7,971 bases of DNA from Thermoplasmata archaeon (GTDB lineage: Archaea > Thermoplasmatota > Thermoplasmata > Lutacidiplasmatales > UBA184): assembly GCA_030042955.1 (NCBI GenBank), contig JASHYQ010000174.1:1-7971 (forward strand), written 5' to 3'. The notes below the pieces were generated by a model. The model had not been told where the DNA came from, did not search any database, and saw only the letters and a list, made by a program, of their open reading frames with translations. The translations under genes were made by a program, and so were the position numbers. This document shows positions 1-7,971 of the stretch, one piece after another (the first letter of the stretch is position 1; the number at the start of each line of letters is the position of its first letter).

Positions 1-1610
1 TGGGCCTCGCGGGCCTGGAGGTAGTCGAGGACCTCGACGCGCCGTCGGACCTCGCGCTCCATCTCCTTCATCGACCAGTTCTTCGCGAGCGCGACGCGCT
101 CGTAGACGTACGAGTGGCCCGAGTAGAGGAACGTGTCGTCGGCCGGGTTCCACGAATAGACCGAGTTGGTGATCAGCTCGTTCGTCTCGGGGTCGAGGCC
201 GACGATCTCGGTGAGCGACTGGACGCGCCGCGTCATCTTCGAGCCGACCTTCACCTGGCGCTGGAGGAGGACGAGGTTCAGCGCGCTCACGAGCGAGCGG
301 GGGAGCGAGATCGGCGGGTTCTCCATCCGGTGGACCATCGCGCTGACGCTCTCGGCGTGGAAGGTCGTGTAGCAGGTCTTCCCGGTCGCCATCGCCTGGA
401 AGACGATGAACGCCTCGGCGCCTCGGACCTCTCCGACCATCAGGTACTGCGGGCGCTGGCGCAGGGCGGCGGCGAGGAGGTCGAACATGTCGATCTCGCC
501 CGGCGCCTTGCCGCTCACGAGGTTCTTGGCGCCGAAGCCGGCGCGCGTGAGCGAGGGGACCCAGTTCTCGTGCGGCAGGTTCAGCTCGCGGGTGTCCTCG
601 ATCGAGACGATCTTCATCTGGGGCGGGATGAAGAGCAGCGTGGCGTTGAGGGTCGTCGTCTTCCCGCTCGCCGTGCCGCCGCAGACCATCATCGACTGGC
701 CGCTCTCGATGGCGATCCAGAGGTAGGCCATCATCTCGGGGCTCATCGTGCGGAACTTGAGCAGGTCGACCGGGGTGAACGGGTTGTCCCGGAACCGACG
801 GATCGTGAACGAGCTCCCGCGCTTCGTCACGTGCACGCCGAGGGTCGCCTGGAGACGCGAGCCGTCCGGGACGGTCGCGTCCAGGATCGGGCTCGCGACC
901 GAGATGTGCTTGCCCGAGCGCTGGGCGAGCCAGATGACGTAGTCGTCGACCAGCTTCGCGCTCTCGAACTTCAGGTTCGAGCGGATGGAGCCGAACTTCC
1001 GGTGGTAGATGTACAGCGGGATGCCGACGCCGTCGCACGAGATGTCCTCGACCTCGCTGTCGGTCATCGGGACATCGACGATCCCGTAGCCGATGAAGTC
1101 CCGCTCGAGGTAGTAGAGCATCCGGCCTTTCGTCGTCGGGCCGGGGGAGAGGTCCCACTCCTGGAGCTTCTTGTCGACCATCAGGCGGAGCTCGGTCCGC
1201 TTCGTCTGGGGGTCGAGCTCGGGGAGCGGCTCGAAGTCGTCGATCAGCACCGTGTGCATCCGCTCGGTCAGCTCCTTCTCAAGCGGGGAGAGCGGGGGCT
1301 CGATGACCTCGTAGAGGTACTCGTTGCGCACGTTGTGGTAGGAGATCCGCACGAAGGAGAACCCGGGTCGGATCGGCGCCAGGTCGACCTCCTTCTGCGC
1401 CGGGTCGGAGAGCGGCGGCACGGGGGTCACCTCCCCCTCCGCGCCCTGGCCCGAGACCCCGAGGCGGGCGAGCTTCACGCCGTGGGGGTCGGTCGAGCCC
1501 TTCCGGAGCGCGGCTCCGACCCGCAGGAACGGCGAGAACGACCGCTGCGGCCGCCGGCGGGGGGGCCGCTCCAGCACGACGGTCTCCGAGGGGGCCGCGT
1601 CGCCGGCCAT
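1..1610 (-). CDS. Type II/IV secretion system ATPase A1 (archaeal GspE/TadA/VirB11-like), 3' end cut by window edge
   Basis: Cytoplasmic hexameric ATPase of the PilB/GspE/VirB11 superfamily, expected to drive assembly of a type IV/Tad-like filament through the platform proteins encoded just upstream. The ORF opens with ATG at 1610 and reads 536 codons to the left edge without a stop. Alignment with its paralogue at 3603-5258 suggests only about 30-40 C-terminal residues are missing. Seen: a basic, Pro/Arg-rich N-terminal tail (about 1-80), an N-terminal domain with EDISCDGV, Walker A GGTASGKT (311-318, Lys317), Asp box SIEDTRE (336-342), Walker B-type VGEVRG (392-397, Glu394) and His box TTFHAES (415-421, His418). 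All catalytic elements are intact. The start is one base after the TAA of the upstream platform gene, behind a G-rich run, so translation is probably coupled. The family is certain. Whether it extends or retracts the filament, or serves another role, cannot be told from sequence. Confidence 0.95.
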   Translation of the reverse strand, partial: MAGDAAPSETVVLERPPRRRPQRSFSPFLRVGAALRKGSTDPHGVKLARLGVSGQGAEGEVTPVPPLSDPAQKEVDLAPIRPGFSFVRISYHNVRNEYLYEVIEPPLSPLEKELTERMHTVLIDDFEPLPELDPQTKRTELRLMVDKKLQEWDLSPGPTTKGRMLYYLERDFIGYGIVDVPMTDSEVEDISCDGVGIPLYIYHRKFGSIRSNLKFESAKLVDDYVIWLAQRSGKHISVASPILDATVPDGSRLQATLGVHVTKRGSSFTIRRFRDNPFTPVDLLKFRTMSPEMMAYLWIAIESGQSMMVCGGTASGKTTTLNATLLFIPPQMKIVSIEDTRELNLPHENWVPSLTRAGFGAKNLVSGKAPGEIDMFDLLAAALRQRPQYLMVGEVRGAEAFIVFQAMATGKTCYTTFHAESVSAMVHRMENPPISLPRSLVSALNLVLLQRQVKVGSKMTRRVQSLTEIVGLDPETNELITNSVYSWNPADDTFLYSGHSYVYERVALAKNWSMKEMEREVRRRVEVLDYLQAREA

Positions 1611-1621
1611 CTTAGCCCCCC
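1611..1621 (-). promoter_or_regulatory. Translational coupling junction platform gene / ATPase A1
   Basis: On the minus strand GGGGGGC is followed by TAA, one G and ATG. The stop of the platform gene and the start of ATPase A1 are one base apart, and the G-run inside the last codons is the only ribosome binding site candidate. The core TAAGATGGC is identical to the junction at 2588-2596. Confidence 0.55.
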
Positions 1622-2592
1622 GGGACGGCAAGGATCGGGACGAAGAAGCGCATCGTGAGGTACCCCATGATCAGCATGATCGTCGCGTGCTGGAGGCCGT
1701 AGGCGATCCTCCCCTTCTGCAGGATGCCGGCCATGATGCCGTCCCCGACCGCGTGGGCGATGACCGCGACGAAGAACGCGAGGAACAGCTGCGGGACGAG
1801 CGTGAAGGCGAGCGATACGCCCCCCGCGGAGCCGAGCGACGAGTGCGCGACGCCCGAGCCCGCGGTGATCATGTCGGGCAGGAAGATCGCCGCCATGATG
1901 TAGATCGTGACGAGGAACACCCCGAACGAGATGTAGATGACCGTGAGGTAGGTGAGCATCTGGATCTCCCGGGACTTCACGGAGAGCTGGACCTCCCGCG
2001 TGTCGTGGGCGACCATGGTCAGCACGTCCGCGACGTTCCCCCCGGCCTCGTTGGCCCGGGTGACGATGGAGACGACCCGCTGGACCAGCGGGGTCGGGAC
2101 CCGCTCCTCGAAGAGGCGGAGGGCAGTGGCGACGGGGACCCCCCACTCGAGCTGGCTCGCCATCTTCTTGATCTCGTCCGTGAGGAGGCCGTAGCGGCCC
2201 TTGCTCCCCACGACGATGGCGTCCGGGAGGGTCATGCCGAACCGTCCGGCCTCCGCGACGTCGCGGAGGAAGTCGGGCAGGCGGTCCTCGATCTTCTCGA
2301 CCCGTCCGAGCTGCCGGCTCTTTAGGAACCCGTAGGGGGCCATGATGGCGATGAGGCCGAAGACGATCCAGTCGATGGCCGCGTCGAAGCCGGTCGTCAC
2401 GCCGGAGCGGAAGACGAAGTTGAGGTCCCCCGCCCAGGTGAGCCCGGCGACGACCCAGAGGATGACCGCGACGACCGCGCCGACGATCAGGACGACCTCG
2501 GCGCTCCCGAGTCGCCCCTCCTCCTCGGCGGCGGTCGGTGCGGCGAGGGCCTTGACCTTCCGGACGGATGCGGGCGCGTTTGCGGTTGCCAT
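1612..2592 (-). CDS. Type II secretion system F-domain membrane platform protein, FlaJ C-half/TadC-like
   Basis: Polytopic inner-platform protein of a type IV filament system, 326 aa, expected to sit in the cytoplasmic membrane and couple the ATPase to pilin extrusion. Hydrophobic segments are seen at about 31-53, 74-90, 214-238, 259-282 and 300-323. A single T2SSF domain lies at about 105-230, with motifs usual in archaeal FlaJ/TadC C-terminal halves: LPDFLRD (105-111), GMTLPDA (119-125), WGVPVATAL (150-158) and EAGGNVADVL (182-191). The C-terminal pair of membrane segments, with GILQKG between them, also matches the end of FlaJ-type proteins. Length is about half that of the fused two-domain archaeal FlaJ. 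ATG at 2592 follows the upstream TAA by one base, with a GGTG Shine-Dalgarno-like tetramer 4 nt before the ATG. Its partner is the neighbouring gene at 2594-3595. Confidence 0.93.
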   Translation of the reverse strand: MATANAPASVRKVKALAAPTAAEEEGRLGSAEVVLIVGAVVAVILWVVAGLTWAGDLNFVFRSGVTTGFDAAIDWIVFGLIAIMAPYGFLKSRQLGRVEKIEDRLPDFLRDVAEAGRFGMTLPDAIVVGSKGRYGLLTDEIKKMASQLEWGVPVATALRLFEERVPTPLVQRVVSIVTRANEAGGNVADVLTMVAHDTREVQLSVKSREIQMLTYLTVIYISFGVFLVTIYIMAAIFLPDMITAGSGVAHSSLGSAGGVSLAFTLVPQLFLAFFVAVIAHAVGDGIMAGILQKGRIAYGLQHATIMLIMGYLTMRFFVPILAVPGG

Positions 2593-2600
2593 CTTACACC
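2593..2600 (-). promoter_or_regulatory. Translational coupling junction between the two platform genes
   Basis: On the minus strand GGTG (2600-2597), formed by the last codons of the upstream platform gene, matches part of the archaeal Shine-Dalgarno consensus. It is followed by TAA, G and ATG. The one-base gap suggests terminating ribosomes restart directly on the second platform gene, keeping the two partners near 1:1. Confidence 0.55.
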
Positions 2601-3595
2601 ATGTCGGCCGTGAGCGTATACATGAAGAAGATGAACCCGAACTGCGCGATGGGGATGAGCAGCGCGACGATCGCCCAGAGGATATCGATCATGAACGTCC
2701 CGCCGCCTCCGATGACGGCGAAGATCGCGATGATGATGACCAGGAAGAGGGGGAAGGCGACGACGACCGTGACGAACGTCTCGGCCATCAGTCCGAGCGT
2801 CTCGACGCGGGAGAGCATCTCGAGCTTGTTTTCCTGCTCGTACTGCTCGCTCTTGAGCAGGAAGTACGGCTTCAGCTGGCCGCCGCTCGTCGCGGTGGTC
2901 ACGACGCCCTGCAGGAAGTCCTGGAACCGCTTGGAGGGGCTCCGCTGGGCGCCGGTCCGGAGCGCGGTCAGGATGTCCACCCCCAGGAGCTCGGTGTCGC
3001 GGGTGATCCAGGCGGCCTCCTCGGCGACCTCGCCGTAGATCTTCTGGCGGGCCAGCTCCTTGAAGATCTGGTCGACGTTGACGTCGGCGGACGCCATCGC
3101 GCTGACGAAGCTCATCGCCGGGGAGATCTTCCGGTCGATCTTGCGCCCGCGGGCCTTCGCGGTCGACGCGGGCGTCCCGGGCATCCCGAAGAGCGTCCCG
3201 ACGAAGCCGAAGACGGGGAGCCCGACGGCGAGCAGGACCCCCACGAACAAGGGGAGGCCGACGATGTCGACCATGAAGAAGGCGGCCCCGAGCCCCGCGA
3301 ACACCATCGCGATGGTGACGACGATGCTCGTCCCGTAGACCATCGCCATGTACTCGTCGGCGCGGAGGCGGATGTGGGCCTTCAGGAGGTTCTCCTCGAG
3401 GGCCGGGTCCGGGGGTCGCGTGAGGACCCGCTGGCGGAAGGTCTTCCAGCACCAGCGCTGGAAGGGGGTCAGGGTCGAGTGGGTCGGCTGCTCGCCTCGC
3501 TTCAGGCGGACGGTGCGGGTGGGCTCCGAGGCGAGGGCGGGCGCGGGAAGGCGGGAGGGGCGGACGGCAGCGTTCGAGGTCGGGGTCGCCGGCAT
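2594..3595 (-). CDS. Type II secretion system F-domain membrane platform protein, FlaJ N-half/TadB-like
   Basis: Second platform protein of the filament machine, 333 aa, membrane located. Residues 1-60 are hydrophilic, Pro/Ala-rich and basic, probably cytoplasmic. Hydrophobic segments are seen at about 84-108, 113-135, 273-296 and 304-327. The T2SSF domain lies at about 158-285 and carries features I associate with the N-terminal half of archaeal FlaJ/TadC: a TELLGVDILTALR stretch (201-213), SPSKRFQDFLQG (219-230), TSGGQL (236-241) and VETLGLMAETFV (264-275). Together with the product of 1612-2592 it would rebuild the usual two-domain platform. ATG at 3595 lies 7 nt after the TAG of the ATPase gene, with GGGGAG overlapping that stop as a ribosome binding site very close to the start. 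A clean stop, its own start and full membrane segments argue that this is a separate gene and not a frameshifted fusion. Confidence 0.93.
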   Translation of the reverse strand: MPATPTSNAAVRPSRLPAPALASEPTRTVRLKRGEQPTHSTLTPFQRWCWKTFRQRVLTRPPDPALEENLLKAHIRLRADEYMAMVYGTSIVVTIAMVFAGLGAAFFMVDIVGLPLFVGVLLAVGLPVFGFVGTLFGMPGTPASTAKARGRKIDRKISPAMSFVSAMASADVNVDQIFKELARQKIYGEVAEEAAWITRDTELLGVDILTALRTGAQRSPSKRFQDFLQGVVTTATSGGQLKPYFLLKSEQYEQENKLEMLSRVETLGLMAETFVTVVVAFPLFLVIIIAIFAVIGGGGTFMIDILWAIVALLIPIAQFGFIFFMYTLTADMV

Positions 3596-3602
3596 CGCTC
3601 CC

Positions 3603-5258
3603 CTACGACCCCTTGGGGAACGGGGTCCCCGCCTGCACGCGCGCCATGACCTCTTTCGGGTCCTTGTAGTACTGCGCCACGATCCGCCACAGCTGGCGGT
3701 AGTCGGTGATCTTGAACCGCACGAGGTAGCGGATCACGTCGACGCGGCGCTGGAACTCCGCGTCCATCTCGTCGGTCGTGAAGTTCCGCACCTCGGTGAT
3801 CTTGTCGAAAAGGAACGAGTGGCCCTTGAAGGTGAAGGTGTCCCCGGCGGGGTCCCACTCGTAGACGGTGTTGGTGATCAGCTCGTTGGTCTCCGGCTCG
3901 AACCCGACGATCTCGAGCACCTGCTTGAGCCGCCGGACCACGCCCTTCTCCGTCCGGGCCTGGATCTGGATGATGACGTTGTTGAGCGCGGAGAGGAGGA
4001 TACGGGGCGTGTTGATCGGGGGATTCTCGAGGCGGTTGACCATCGATTTCACGCTGTCCGCGTGCATGGTCGAGTAGGTCGTGTGGCCCGTCGCCATCGC
4101 CTGGAACATCGTGTACGTCTCCTTGCCGCGGACCTCCCCGACGATGATGTAGTTCGGCCGCTGCCGCAGCGCCGCCCGCACGAGGTCGAACATGTCGACC
4201 TCCCCGGCGGTCTTCCCGTCGGGTCCTCGGTCGCCGGTCCCGGACCGGGTGGCCCCGGGGATCCAGTTCTCGTGGGGGAGGTTCACCTCCCGGGTATCCT
4301 CGATCGAGACGATCTTGGAGGTCGGGGGGATGAAGAGGGCGATGGCGTTGAGGGTGCTGGTCTTGCCGGCGGCGGGGCCGCCGCAGATGATCACGGACTC
4401 CCCCTGCTCCGCGGCGAGCCAGAAGTAGGCGACCATCTCCTCGTTCGCGCTGCCCATCAGGACGAGGTCGACCGGGGTGAACGGTCGCTCCTTGAATCGA
4501 CGGATCGTGAAGCTCGCGCCGCGGGTCGTGATCTCGCGCGCGTACGTCGCCTGGACCCGGTGCCCCTCGGGGGTGGTCCCGTCCAGGATGGGGGAGGAGA
4601 CGCTGACGGCCTTGGCGCAGCGTTGCCCCAGCATGACGATGAACGAGTTGAGGGAGTCCTCGTCCTCGAAGATGACGTTCGTCTTCATCGACTCGTACTT
4701 GCCGTGGAAGATGAAGATCGGGACATCGACCCCGTCGCACGAGATGTCCTCGACCTCCGGGTCCAGGATGAGGGAGTCGACGGGCCCGTAGCCGACGAAG
4801 TCCCGCAAGAGGTAGTAGATGATCCGCTCGGTCGAGAGGGGAGAGAGCGGGACGTTGCGGCTGCGGAAGTACTCCTCCGCCTCGCCTCGCAGGTAGGAGC
4901 GCTTGTCGGCGGTCGACAGGTTGGCGGTCTCGCTGCCGAGGATCTGGCTCATGGTCGCCTTCAGGTGGGCGACCAGCGCCTTCTCGTGGCCCGAGAGCTG
5001 GGGCTCGATGATCTCGTAGAGGTACTCCTTGTTCCGGTCGTTGTAGGAGACCCGCGAGTAGGAGTACGGCGGGTTCACCGCCTGCACCTCGAGCTCGCGC
5101 ATCGTCGGCTCGGCGAGCGGCGGCAGCGCCGTGATGAACGTCCCCGGCACATCCGTCGCGGGCAGCGCCGACTTGGCACTGGTGTCGAGCGGGCTCTTCT
5201 CGACCGGTGCGGCCCGCGGGATCTTGACGCGGAAGGAGGACGATCCGGAGGCGGTCAT
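3603..5258 (-). CDS. Type II/IV secretion system ATPase A2 (archaeal GspE/TadA/VirB11-like)
   Basis: Complete 551-aa cytoplasmic motor ATPase for the filament system. Seen: a low-complexity N-terminal tail (1-55), an N-terminal domain with the conserved EVEDISCDGVDVP stretch (168-180), Walker A GGPAAGKT (293-300, Lys299), Asp box SIEDTRE (318-324), NLPHENWIP (326-334), Walker B VGEVRG (373-378, Glu375) and His box STMHADS (396-402, His399). It is collinear with ATPase A1 at 1-1610 from the YSYSRVSYN region onward, with roughly half the residues identical by eye, so the two are paralogues. It lies 4 nt downstream of the prepilin and 7 nt upstream of the first platform gene, the usual position for the assembly ATPase. 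ATG at 5258 was chosen because it follows the pilin TGA closely and is preceded by a run of seven G at 5268-5274. The start is somewhat uncertain because the first 55 residues are poorly conserved in character. Confidence 0.95.
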   Translation of the reverse strand: MTASGSSSFRVKIPRAAPVEKSPLDTSAKSALPATDVPGTFITALPPLAEPTMRELEVQAVNPPYSYSRVSYNDRNKEYLYEIIEPQLSGHEKALVAHLKATMSQILGSETANLSTADKRSYLRGEAEEYFRSRNVPLSPLSTERIIYYLLRDFVGYGPVDSLILDPEVEDISCDGVDVPIFIFHGKYESMKTNVIFEDEDSLNSFIVMLGQRCAKAVSVSSPILDGTTPEGHRVQATYAREITTRGASFTIRRFKERPFTPVDLVLMGSANEEMVAYFWLAAEQGESVIICGGPAAGKTSTLNAIALFIPPTSKIVSIEDTREVNLPHENWIPGATRSGTGDRGPDGKTAGEVDMFDLVRAALRQRPNYIIVGEVRGKETYTMFQAMATGHTTYSTMHADSVKSMVNRLENPPINTPRILLSALNNVIIQIQARTEKGVVRRLKQVLEIVGFEPETNELITNTVYEWDPAGDTFTFKGHSFLFDKITEVRNFTTDEMDAEFQRRVDVIRYLVRFKITDYRQLWRIVAQYYKDPKEVMARVQAGTPFPKGS

Positions 5259-6502: not shown

Positions 6503-6991
6503 ATGACCCTCCGTGAGATCTCGCTGACGCTCCCGAATCGTCCGGGTGCTCTCGCGGGGGTCGCCCGGGTGCTCGCCAAGGAGCGGATCAACCTCGCGGC
6601 GATCAGCGTCGACTCCGCCGCGGGCAAAGGACGGGTGCGGCTGATCGTCAGTGACCCGGACCGGGCCCTGGTCCTCCTCTCGACGAACGGCTACGAGACC
6701 GAGGTCCGGGAGATGATGGCCGTTCGGATGGAGGACCGGGCCGGGAGCTTCCTGCGGGTCCTCGAAGCCCTCGCCCGGGCGAAAGTGAACATCCAGAGCG
6801 TGGCGATCCTGGTCGCCCGCGACGGGAACCACCCGCTCGTCGCGCTCTCCGCGACCGACCTGAGCCGGGCCCGGACGGTCCTGCGCCAGGCCGGGTTCGC
6901 GAGCACGGCCGCCGAGCGCCTCGTCTCGAACGCGGACCTGCTGGCCAGCGCGCCCTCGATCCCCGGCGAGTCGGTGGGCCTGCTTCTCTAG
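6503..6991 (+). CDS. Tandem ACT-domain protein (possible amino-acid-binding regulator)
   Basis: Small cytoplasmic protein, 162 aa, made of two ACT domains: one at about 4-68, beginning EISLTLPNRPGAL with the NRPG ligand-loop signature (12-15), and one at about 72-136, with the cognate loop reading DRAGS (78-82), where Ala replaces the usual Pro. Both show the beta-alpha-beta-beta-alpha-beta pattern, including helix-to-strand stretches ERINLAAISV and AKVNIQSVAI. ACT domains bind amino acids or other small effectors and often regulate metabolic enzymes. Stand-alone double-ACT proteins (COG4747-like) are common in archaea, but their targets are mostly unknown. No catalytic or DNA-binding domain is present. 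The C-terminal 26 residues are hydrophobic and poorly structured. It is transcribed away from the pilus operon and followed by tRNA-Gly. A functional link to the pilus is not supported by sequence. Confidence 0.88.
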   Translation: MTLREISLTLPNRPGALAGVARVLAKERINLAAISVDSAAGKGRVRLIVSDPDRALVLLSTNGYETEVREMMAVRMEDRAGSFLRVLEALARAKVNIQSVAILVARDGNHPLVALSATDLSRARTVLRQAGFASTAAERLVSNADLLASAPSIPGESVGLLL

Positions 6992-7047: not shown

Positions 7048-7119
7048 GCGGTTGTGGTCTAGTGGTTAGGACGGTAGCTTCCCAAGCTACCTACTCGGGT
7101 TCGAATCCCGACAACCGCA
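7048..7119 (+). tRNA. trnG: tRNA-Gly (anticodon CCC)
   Basis: A full cloverleaf can be folded: acceptor stem GCGGTTG (7048-7054) with CAACCGC (7112-7118); D stem GTCT/GGAC (7057-7060/7069-7072); anticodon stem GTAGC/GCTAC with loop TTCCCAA, giving anticodon CCC at 7081-7083; a 4-nt variable loop; T stem TCGGG/CCCGA around TTCGAAT; and discriminator A at 7119. The 3' CCA is not encoded, as in many archaea. No intron. It begins 56 nt after the ACT gene stop. A degenerate AT-richer patch (7009-7019) could be its promoter, but is weak. Confidence 0.97.
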
Positions 7120-7328: not shown

Positions 7329-7435
7329 TCCCGGCTGCCTGACTCGAACAGGCGACCTGAGGATTTCTACGGGGGCCGCCGGTGGTCCGGCAGTCTCGAC
7401 TACAGTCCCCCGCTCTACCACTGAGCTAAGCCGGG
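7329..7435 (-). tRNA. trnY: tRNA-Tyr (anticodon GTA) with an intron
   Basis: On the minus strand a cloverleaf forms with acceptor CCCGGCT/AGCCGGG (7435-7429 with 7336-7330) and discriminator A at 7329; D stem GCTC/GAGC; T stem GCCTG/CAGGC around TTCGAGT; and anticodon stem GGGGA/TCCTC (7410-7406 with 7363-7359, one G-T wobble). Anticodon GTA is at 7403-7401. The C1:G72 pair with A73 is the archaeal/eukaryotic TyrRS identity set. The anticodon loop is interrupted by a 35-nt intron after G37 (7400); the spliced tRNA is 72 nt. CCA is not encoded. A TATA-like box at 7466-7461 is placed correctly for its transcription start. Confidence 0.95.
7365..7399 (-). other. Archaeal tRNA intron (canonical 37/38 position)
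   Basis: Inferred 35-nt intron in tRNA-Tyr. Splicing after G37 (7400) and before A38 (7364) restores the 7-nt loop CTGTAGA. A bulge-helix-bulge can be drawn: central pairs C32-G7367, U33-A7368, G34-U7369, U35-G7370, with 3-nt bulges A36-G37-U7399 and A7366-A7365-A7364, and cuts between the second and third bulge bases. The intron body carries a hairpin, CTGCCGG (7393-7387) with CCGGCGG (7382-7376) around loop ACCA. It is separated from the bulge by unpaired or mismatched bases, so the motif looks relaxed. Confidence 0.8.
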
Positions 7436-7499: not shown

Positions 7500-7971
7500 A
7501 TGCGGGTCCTCGAGCACCGACGCCACAGCTATCGCGACCCCTCCAGCGCGCACCTGAGCCCCGAGGGGGTCGCCCTCGCCCGCCGCGTCGGTCGGGGGAT
7601 CGGACGGTTCGACCGGGTCGTCACCTCTCCAAAGCCCCGCGCTGTGGAGACTGCGGAGGCACTCGGGTTTCCCGACCCCGAGGTGCTGCCGGGGCTCGGC
7701 GAGATGCCGGACGAGGTCGGGATGCTGGGGGAGAAGCTCGAGCTCGGGAGCTTCGCGGAGTACGTGCACGCGGTCCTCGTGAGCGAGGTGGCCCGCCGCT
7801 ACGCGGACGAGCAGCTCTCGCTCTGGGCGGACGTGCTGGACGACGTCCCCGACGGAGCTCGAGTCCTGATGGTCTCCCACGCCGGGGTCATCGAATACGG
7901 CGCCGCTGCCGCCGCCCCCGAGGTGGCCCCGACGTGGGGCGCACCGCTCGGCTACTTGGAGGGGGTCCGAT
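7500..7971 (+). CDS. Histidine phosphatase superfamily protein (RHS variant), 3' end cut by window edge
   Basis: N-terminal 157 residues of a phosphoglycerate mutase-like/histidine phosphatase protein, which would hydrolyse a phosphoester via a phospho-His intermediate; the substrate is unknown. Seen: the first catalytic motif as EHRRHSYRD (5-13), with nucleophile His9 and Ser in place of the Gly of the usual RHG; HLSPEG (18-23); TSPKPRAVETAEAL (42-55) with the conserved Arg47; a possible acid Glu68; and the second catalytic motif VSHAGVIE (125-132) with His127. The frame is open at the right edge. ATG at 7500 was chosen because the MRVLEHRRH opening puts the motif where this family usually has it, and GGAGGGG at 7484-7490 lies 9 nt before it. 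In-frame GTG codons at 7476 and 7482 would add 8 or 6 residues and cannot be excluded. It may be an SixA-like phosphohistidine phosphatase, but this is not shown. Confidence 0.85.
   Translation, partial: MRVLEHRRHSYRDPSSAHLSPEGVALARRVGRGIGRFDRVVTSPKPRAVETAEALGFPDPEVLPGLGEMPDEVGMLGEKLELGSFAEYVHAVLVSEVARRYADEQLSLWADVLDDVPDGARVLMVSHAGVIEYGAAAAAPEVAPTWGAPLGYLEGVR

Follow-up and report, generated by a model that had tools for sequence, protein, structure and literature searches.

The window analysed here, a 7,971-nucleotide stretch of DNA from a Thermoplasmata archaeon (JASHYQ010000174.1, forward strand), is the whole of one contig (G000:C63) in a 59%-complete assembly of 326 contigs (GCA_030042955.1). 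It appears to contain the greater part of an archaeal pilus operon of the CdiP type, with two secretion ATPases, A1 and A2. From their residues and from related motors, we are slightly inclined to believe that the two join in a single mixed motor ring, A1 being the main ATP burner. On the minus strand, the order of transcription is pilin-like gene, ATPase A2, platform half 1, platform half 2, ATPase A1 (Table 1). Because the gaps from the pilin-like gene to A1 comprise only 4, 7, 1, and 1 bases, respectively, these genes likely form one transcript. The A1 frame is open from position 1610 to the end of the window without a stop codon, and, gauged by the copy at locus L033 (585 amino acids, 97% identical), about 49 C-terminal residues are missing. 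Gene order and gaps bear out the first-pass annotation of two ATPases that bracket the platform genes in a tight operon, with the end of A1 lying outside the window.

Table 1. Positions in the window of the pilus genes and of the active-site motifs discussed in the text.
Feature	Position	Strand	Remarks
Pilin-like gene, 365 amino acids	5263..6360	-	putative class III-type leader, predicted long N-terminal helix and beta-rich head
ATPase A2, 551 amino acids	3603..5258	-	T2SSE 111.7 bits; PilB3-like C-terminal domain (PilB3_C 36.1 bits, cut-off 27)
A2 arginine-finger loop EGHR replacing DGSR, residues 231-234	4557..4568	-	
A2 HIS box TGHTTYSTMH, residues 390-399, two histidines retained	4062..4091	-	
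Platform half 1 (T2SSF), 333 amino acids	2594..3595	-	ArlJ N-terminal half (NF004704 positions 6-244 of 555)
Platform half 2 (T2SSF), 326 amino acids	1612..2592	-	ArlJ C-terminal half (NF004704 positions 308-543 of 555)
ATPase A1, T2SSE	1..1610	-	536 readable codons (3-1610); contig ends before the C-terminus
A1 arginine-finger loop DGSR, ancestral form, residues 249-252	855..866	-	
A1 HIS box TGKTCYTTFH, residues 409-418	357..386	-	Lys411 (codon 378-380) at first histidine; second retained

A1 and A2 differ at conserved active-site positions

A1 and A2 are identical at 235 of 472 residues (50%; 509 bits), in line with the earlier view that they are collinear paralogues, and both match the T2SSE profile (A1 115.9 bits; cut-off 24.9). 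Neither reaches the cut-off of the ArlI/FlaI equivalog (550; A1 397.7, A2 409.7) or of the PilT family (319.1; A1 38.3, A2 45.0). The nearest solved structure for both is the archaeal GspE2 (2oap; A1 397.7 bits, A2 396.8 bits), and the TadA-family scores of the two ATPases (139.6 and 138.8) fall far below 373.15, so that the label "Tad/Epp-like", under which the system had been placed, is a loose one.

The Walker A Lys, the Asp-box Glu, the Walker B Glu, the arginine finger and the second HIS-box His are present in both proteins, and as far as the sequence tells, the first four of these give both A1 and A2 a full catalytic core. Both HIS-box histidines have been described as required for secretion ATPases (PMC6762196). 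A2 has the two, whereas A1 lacks the first, its residue 411 being Lys. The first-pass annotation, according to which both ATPases keep the Walker A Lys, Asp box, Walker B Glu and His box, therefore holds for the first three elements and fails for the His box of A1.

This difference extends beyond the window. In an alignment of 84 A1, 103 A2 and 25 out-group rows (nine relatives, ten other ATPases and six rows of a group termed D), 34 columns show at least 85% uniformity within A1 and within A2 yet differ between them. Three columns pass a lost-mark filter, for which the residue must be conserved in one paralogue (at least 95% of rows) as well as in the out-group (at least 90%) but lost in the other paralogue: the first HIS-box His, lost in A1 (411 in A1, equal to 392 in A2), and the D and S of DGSR, lost in A2. 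The out-group has H in 24 of 25 rows at the former position and D and S in 25 of 25 each at the latter two; likewise, GspE2, FlaI and CpaF show DGSR and TGH in the alignments.

In a larger count confined to distinct sequences (100 A1 and 117 A2 rows), the first HIS-box residue of A1 is K in 83 rows, R in 10, Q in 3, T in 2 and H in 2; it is H in 117 of 117 A2 rows. The A1 copies at loci L118, L133, L121 and L131 are those with H (two) or T (two) replacing K. The preceding residue, T409, is T in 93 of 100 A1 and in all 117 A2 rows. Immediately before the arginine finger, all 116 readable A2 rows have H (GHR; residue 233 in the window), and A1 has S (92) or A (8). By contrast with the marked columns, the Walker A Lys and Thr, the Walker B Glu and Arg, the arginine finger, R384, R386 and the second His (100 of 100 in A1) are kept in every readable A1 and A2 row, and the Asp-box Glu in all except one gapped A1 row. 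Locus rows shorter than 430 amino acids were excluded from the 62-, 69-, 74- and 103-row trees and from the alignment that gave the marked columns; the window-motif and distinct-row counts include two shorter ones.

The marked A1 position would face the neighbouring subunit

Published structures of related motors indicate which of these residues may act across a subunit contact. In PilB of G. metallireducens, T411 touches T327 of the next packing unit and is sandwiched between H413 and H420, the latter contacting the gamma-phosphate (PMC5424180). The T-x-H-(6)-H spacing of PilB fits T409, K411 and H418 of A1. For CpaF, R217 and R223 are reported as an intra-subunit clamp on the phosphates, and R347 as supplied by the neighbouring C-terminal domain (PMC11300603); counting along the CpaF chain, R223 corresponds to the R of DGSR, R347 to R384, the leading R in LRxRP, and H382 to H418. 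The mapping of PilB and CpaF residues onto A1 is our own, made by spacing and counting. By transfer from these structures, the RQRP motif (through its first Arg) and the TGH loop would act across the contact, and the remaining elements within the subunit. Because of these residue roles, the class-wide change in A1 would fall on the across-contact side and that in A2 beside its own finger.

Complementary losses in the genus g35

The most pronounced form of this division is seen in the genus g35 (family f19), of which four genomes (G188, G250, G148 and G191; loci L185-L188) encode an ATPase-like protein F, two platform halves and an ATPase S in the same order as in the window. F is a weak T2SSE match below the cut-off (19.3 bits in G188). 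In all four genomes the A2 profile exceeds the A1 profile for F and the reverse holds for S, and F scores below S with both class-wide profiles. In a 44-row tree that contains long branches, F joins the A2 rows of f19 (99) and S its A1 rows (94).

In four of four genomes, F has lost G and T of Walker A, the two Asp-box Glu, Glu and Arg of Walker B, and the second His, and in two of them the finger Arg as well. Nevertheless, it keeps R384 and R386 (RQRP), T409 and the first His (TGH) in all four. S is its counterpart: the entire own site, namely Walker A, Asp box, Walker B, arginine finger and second His, is retained in four of four, and each copy carries Y at 384, G or N at 386, S at 409 and an R that replaces the first His. 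The identity between genomes is 40-81% for F and 45-76% for S. Where the ratio of nonsynonymous to synonymous substitution rates (dN/dS) was computable for both, it amounts to 0.056 and 0.074 for F and to 0.120 and 0.064 for S, with dS saturated. F is thus constrained and not decaying, as judged from these comparisons. The complementary loss of own-site versus across-contact residues is clear in four of four g35 genomes; the window shows just the first step, with Lys411 in A1 and EGHR in A2. At L185-L188, platform half 2 runs into the beginning of the S frame, with an overlap of tens to hundreds of bases when frames are listed stop to stop.

Distribution of the two-ATPase locus

The A2 query matches 94 of 101 genomes, a set to which the window's own genome belongs, and 207 of 243 genomes drawn from the phylum, with more distant ATPases among the matches in both cases. 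We named the best 80 of 208 loci found with A2. Of these 80, 62 have the order pilin-A2-platform-platform-A1 and 4 the same order without a pilin match, so that A1 follows the platform genes in 66; the other 14 hit the contig end first, with 0 to 82 bases left. The order A2-platform-platform-A1 recurs in 22 of 22 loci from other families of the class (L113-L134, 22 families) and in 7 of 7 from family f19 (L153-L159), both sets having been chosen since two matches already lay near each other and hence being no unbiased census. In a further set (L173-L184), four loci (G001, G002, G046 and G031) had two matches beforehand; six of the remaining eight contain both ATPases and two stop at a contig end. 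L189 and L190 were left uncounted. The locus is not universal: 21 of 22 listed f8 genomes yield just a single, distant match. With the g35 ATPase as query, 11 of 20 genomes lack any match.

In trees, the two paralogues separate cleanly. A1 (23 rows) and A2 (23 rows) each form one side of a branch in the 74-row tree (100/100), and likewise with 20 rows each in a 62-row tree without long branches (100/100), where the stems measure 0.46 and 0.47; by eye, the inner branching orders of the two clades are alike. The A1 rows of f19 lie on long branches apart from the other A1 rows, and in the 44-row tree the A2 rows of f19 also stand apart from the other A2 rows. Among 8 pairs sharing loci, dN/dS (Nei-Gojobori) ranges from 0.065 to 0.369 for A1, from 0.055 to 0.294 for A2 and from 0.092 to 0.531 for the pilin gene. 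A1 and A2 are both under purifying selection and each clade is old. A decay of A1 was considered and ruled out, given that its dN/dS resembles that of A2 and that its core residues are retained.

The phylogeny and synteny comparison that the first-pass annotation had called for thus gives each ATPase its own clade and a gene order conserved class-wide. It had also named what would speak against its proposal, namely a second copy unique to this genome and under relaxed constraint, or an A1 that groups with an unrelated system and is a chance neighbour here. Both are ruled out by the purifying selection, the separate clade and the class-wide synteny, and the recurrence of both layout and HIS-box difference across the class likewise speaks against chance.

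The histidine replacement recurs outside the class

The same replacement is found in other lineages with ATPase pairs. In group B (f29 and f44), which has the flanking layout, the second copy has K in 3 of 3 loci and the first H; in group C (f42 and f35), with a tandem layout, the second copy has K in 2 of 2 and the first again H. In each of the three groups with the mark, transcription reaches the H copy before the K copy. Nine further relatives have H in nine of nine; L151 has a cut second ATPase alongside, also with H, and L150 stops at a contig end. Among 120 proteins retrieved with the C2 query, 65 have K and 55 H.

A 103-row tree, built with 34 representatives of these 120 proteins and without the three marked columns, shows K or R in three clades with support and, in addition, in the f19 A1 rows. 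In 69 rows without the marked columns, one clade of all K rows is rejected (p 0.011), in a quick tree and with the group named after earlier trees. Counting supported branches alone, the 69-row tree forces one H-to-K change and the 103-row tree three. With 62 rows, the groupings A1+A2 (p 0.536), A1+B2 (0.516), B1+B2 with L140 (0.563), A1+B2+C2 (0.226) and A2+B1+C1 (0.138) are not rejected. Rows on long branches were dropped, comprising 9 loci from the 62-row analyses and 5 loci from the 103-row tree. These comparisons suggest either that the HIS-box change arose more than once or that one old pair was partly homogenised and yet retained the mark. In group D, the first and second copies cluster together (100/97).

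Platform, pilin-like protein and neighbouring genes

Both platform genes belong to T2SSF. Because one matches the N-terminal and the other the C-terminal half of ArlJ, they look like a single platform split in two. The product of the pilin-like gene has, by manual reading of the sequence, a putative class III-type leader and cleavage site (..SQRG/VVAVIGTLLALLVFF..), and this leader-like N-terminus is conserved in relatives. Its AlphaFold2 model (predicted local distance difference test score 84.9, fair) comprises a helix at residues 8-82 followed by strands in a beta-rich head. No Pfam family scores above its cut-off, no NCBIfam match was obtained at E 0.1, and Foldseek returned no match in the Protein Data Bank at E 0.001, that is, no solved relative. 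The gene is the least identical of the five in 8 of 8 locus pairs. The product is probably a minor pilin.

Divergent neighbours in the window are the gene of a double-ACT-domain protein (6503-6991, plus strand) and a cut histidine-phosphatase gene (7500-7970, plus strand), which do not look like pilus genes. A cluster of open reading frames from 16 loci lies upstream of the operon in relatives (the L033 member is also 162 amino acids long). Moreover, a tRNA-Gly(CCC) is located at 7048-7119 on the plus strand, and a tRNA whose anticodon arm carries a long insertion at 7329-7435 on the minus strand (Rfam 54.8 bits, cut-off 29; unlisted by ARAGORN). The latter looks intron-bearing and is perhaps a tRNA-Tyr.

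Beyond A1, 11 loci of the window's family contain a same-strand cluster of open reading frames right after the ATPase, whose member at L042 (L042:13431-14330) is a DNA methylase (N6_N4_Mtase, 107.7 bits); vWA-like and AAA-like genes, labelled by eye, come next on the other strand. In other families (e.g. L125, L115 and L130), a large open reading frame convergent with A1 recurs in 16 loci, with 950-1583 amino acids in the 14 listed. By eye, the protein at L125 resembles repetitive surface proteins and has, at its C-terminus, a membrane helix and a zinc-ribbon-like tail; it may be an adhesin partner of the pilus.

One mixed ring or two motors

Three roles had been envisaged at the outset for the second ATPase: a mixed hexamer, retraction, or a substrate-specific switch. 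The mixed hexamer is the best supported of them, owing to the losses in g35; retraction and a switch are possible. The class-wide marks in A1 and A2 point the same way as g35, and the linkage of both genes in 66 of 80 named loci and the K in the second copies of groups B and C also favour a mixed ring. In such a ring, A1 and A2 would alternate. A2 would supply the A1 site with the across-contact Arg and His, the A2 site would receive the Lys of A1, and A2 would tune the cycle. A1 would then be free to lose its own across-contact residues, and the own site of A2 would be free to drift; the class would represent the first step of this divergence and g35 the last. One mixed ring would drive both platform halves. 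A ring of this kind would work like that of the F1-ATPase, with no homology implied, in which alpha and beta subunits form a mixed ring, one type catalysing and the other lending an across-contact residue. By orthology, we infer that the window pair already works as a mixed ring although both proteins keep full sites.

A wider proposal, which we hold tentatively and with somewhat less than even confidence, is that Thermoplasmata pili run on an alpha/beta-like two-subunit ring in which A1 hydrolyses ATP with an arginine and a histidine lent by A2, that in a Thermoplasma-like genus A2 has become a pseudo-ATPase retained solely for this role, and that related pair lineages independently made the same first step, the loss of this histidine in their second copy.

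Several observations weigh against a mixed ring. Both proteins of the window, like those of the distinct class rows counted above, have a complete own site together with R384 and R386, and separate homohexamers are hence possible there. Two of 100 A1 rows retain the His, with their A2 partners unchanged. Group D (f38; L142, L143 and L144), which has a tandem pair ahead of the platform genes, keeps the HIS-box His in both copies, and B1 and C1 lack GHR. As to g35, three of the four genomes are 71-81% alike in F, and F could be a non-motor regulator. The predicted-structure model of A1 is poor. Finally, the bacterial PilT and PilU are independent homohexamers (PMC6821130).

The most serious alternative builds on this precedent of separate rings. 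It holds that two homohexameric motors alternate on the split platform, A2 assembling the pilus and A1, whose HIS box is altered, holding or reversing it, in the manner of PilB with PilT/PilU. We regard it as unlikely, even with a full catalytic core in both proteins, in the window as well as class-wide, and with two clades that are each old and constrained. For g35, a pair of separate motors is difficult to uphold, because no site of an S homohexamer would have the across-contact Arg and His, and F is without an ATP site of its own. Moreover, C. divulgatum did not twitch in the assay reported for it (PMC12448462). A mixed ring is favoured instead because the own-site and across-contact losses in g35 are complementary.

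Alternatively, the two ATPases might be assembly motors for different pilin sets or conditions. In this sense, Makarova et al. have argued that archaeal ATPase/TadC modules can work with different pilin sets (PMC4858521), and the pilins of C. divulgatum are encoded approximately 500 kb from the machinery (PMC12448462). The single tight operon with one platform pair, and differences that sit on catalytic elements, make this improbable. Plain redundancy, with interchangeable motors kept for dosage and neutral active-site differences, would agree with the intact core catalytic residues of both window ATPases but is highly implausible in view of fixed changes where 24 or 25 of 25 out-group rows conserve the residue, of the identical H-to-K replacement seen in further lineages with pairs and of the complementary losses in g35.

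If a mixed ring is indeed formed, two-ATPase pilus loci would no longer be read by default as an extension/retraction pair, and the residue marks could be used to find further mixed-ring loci with two ATPases. The complementary losses in g35 would then serve as natural variants, with S alone expected to be weak or dead and S plus F alive.

Comparison with known systems

The layout itself is already published and is not new. For A. boonei, a locus that combines two distinct ATPases with a single pilA-like pilin gene has been noted (Makarova et al. 2016, PMC4858521), and the 2016 Cuniculiplasma genome contains two secretion ATPases clustered with two TadC genes, an arrangement compared there with Aciduliprofundum (PMC5155288). 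In 2025, CdiPE1, CdiPE2, CdiPFa and CdiPFb were described for Thermoplasmatales pili, two ATPases being called unique among archaeal pilus operons and the second one enigmatic (PMC12448462). The proposal of an undescribed variant is therefore overtaken by these reports. That mixed rings might exist in this motor family has been raised without proof (PMC6711533). In the openly licensed PubMed Central papers, supplements excluded, we found no account of the class-wide conservation, the active-site differences or the g35 case, and the main text of the CdiP paper (PMC12448462) does not, in the parts available, mention the residue marks, a mixed ring or a wider conservation.

CdiP of Cuniculiplasma divulgatum is among the closest counterparts of the window, sharing with it the order ATPase-platform-platform-ATPase in one operon, with two T2SSF genes and a platform split into N- and C-terminal halves. 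The locus L153, taken as Cuniculiplasma, has A2, both T2SSF halves and A1, with GHR in A2 and a mark in the HIS box of A1. It differs from the window in that this residue is Arg, not Lys, and in that its 13-kb stretch has no match to the window's pilin-like protein. Its A2 lies inside the A2 clade (100/100) and its A1 on a long branch apart from the other A1 rows, although the A1 rows as a whole form one side of a branch against A2; best match and gene position would fit orthology. Aciduliprofundum boonei likewise has a two-ATPase pilus locus with a pilin gene, for which the published text gives no residue-level comparison (PMC4858521).

Among better-studied motors, GspE2 of Archaeoglobus fulgidus (2oap), though the nearest solved protein, has the ancestral DGSR and TGH, unlike the A1/A2 pair. 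The Aap pilus of Sulfolobus acidocaldarius is an archaeal type IV pilus that retracts without PilT (PMC11178785), but it has one ATPase and one platform protein (PMC12448462). Bacterial PilT and PilU resemble the window in placing two paralogous ATPases on one platform; A1 and A2, however, are by score not members of the PilT family. The Tad motor CpaF shares with the window a related ATPase and two separate platform proteins, and differs in that a single bifunctional ATPase serves both directions (PMC11300603).

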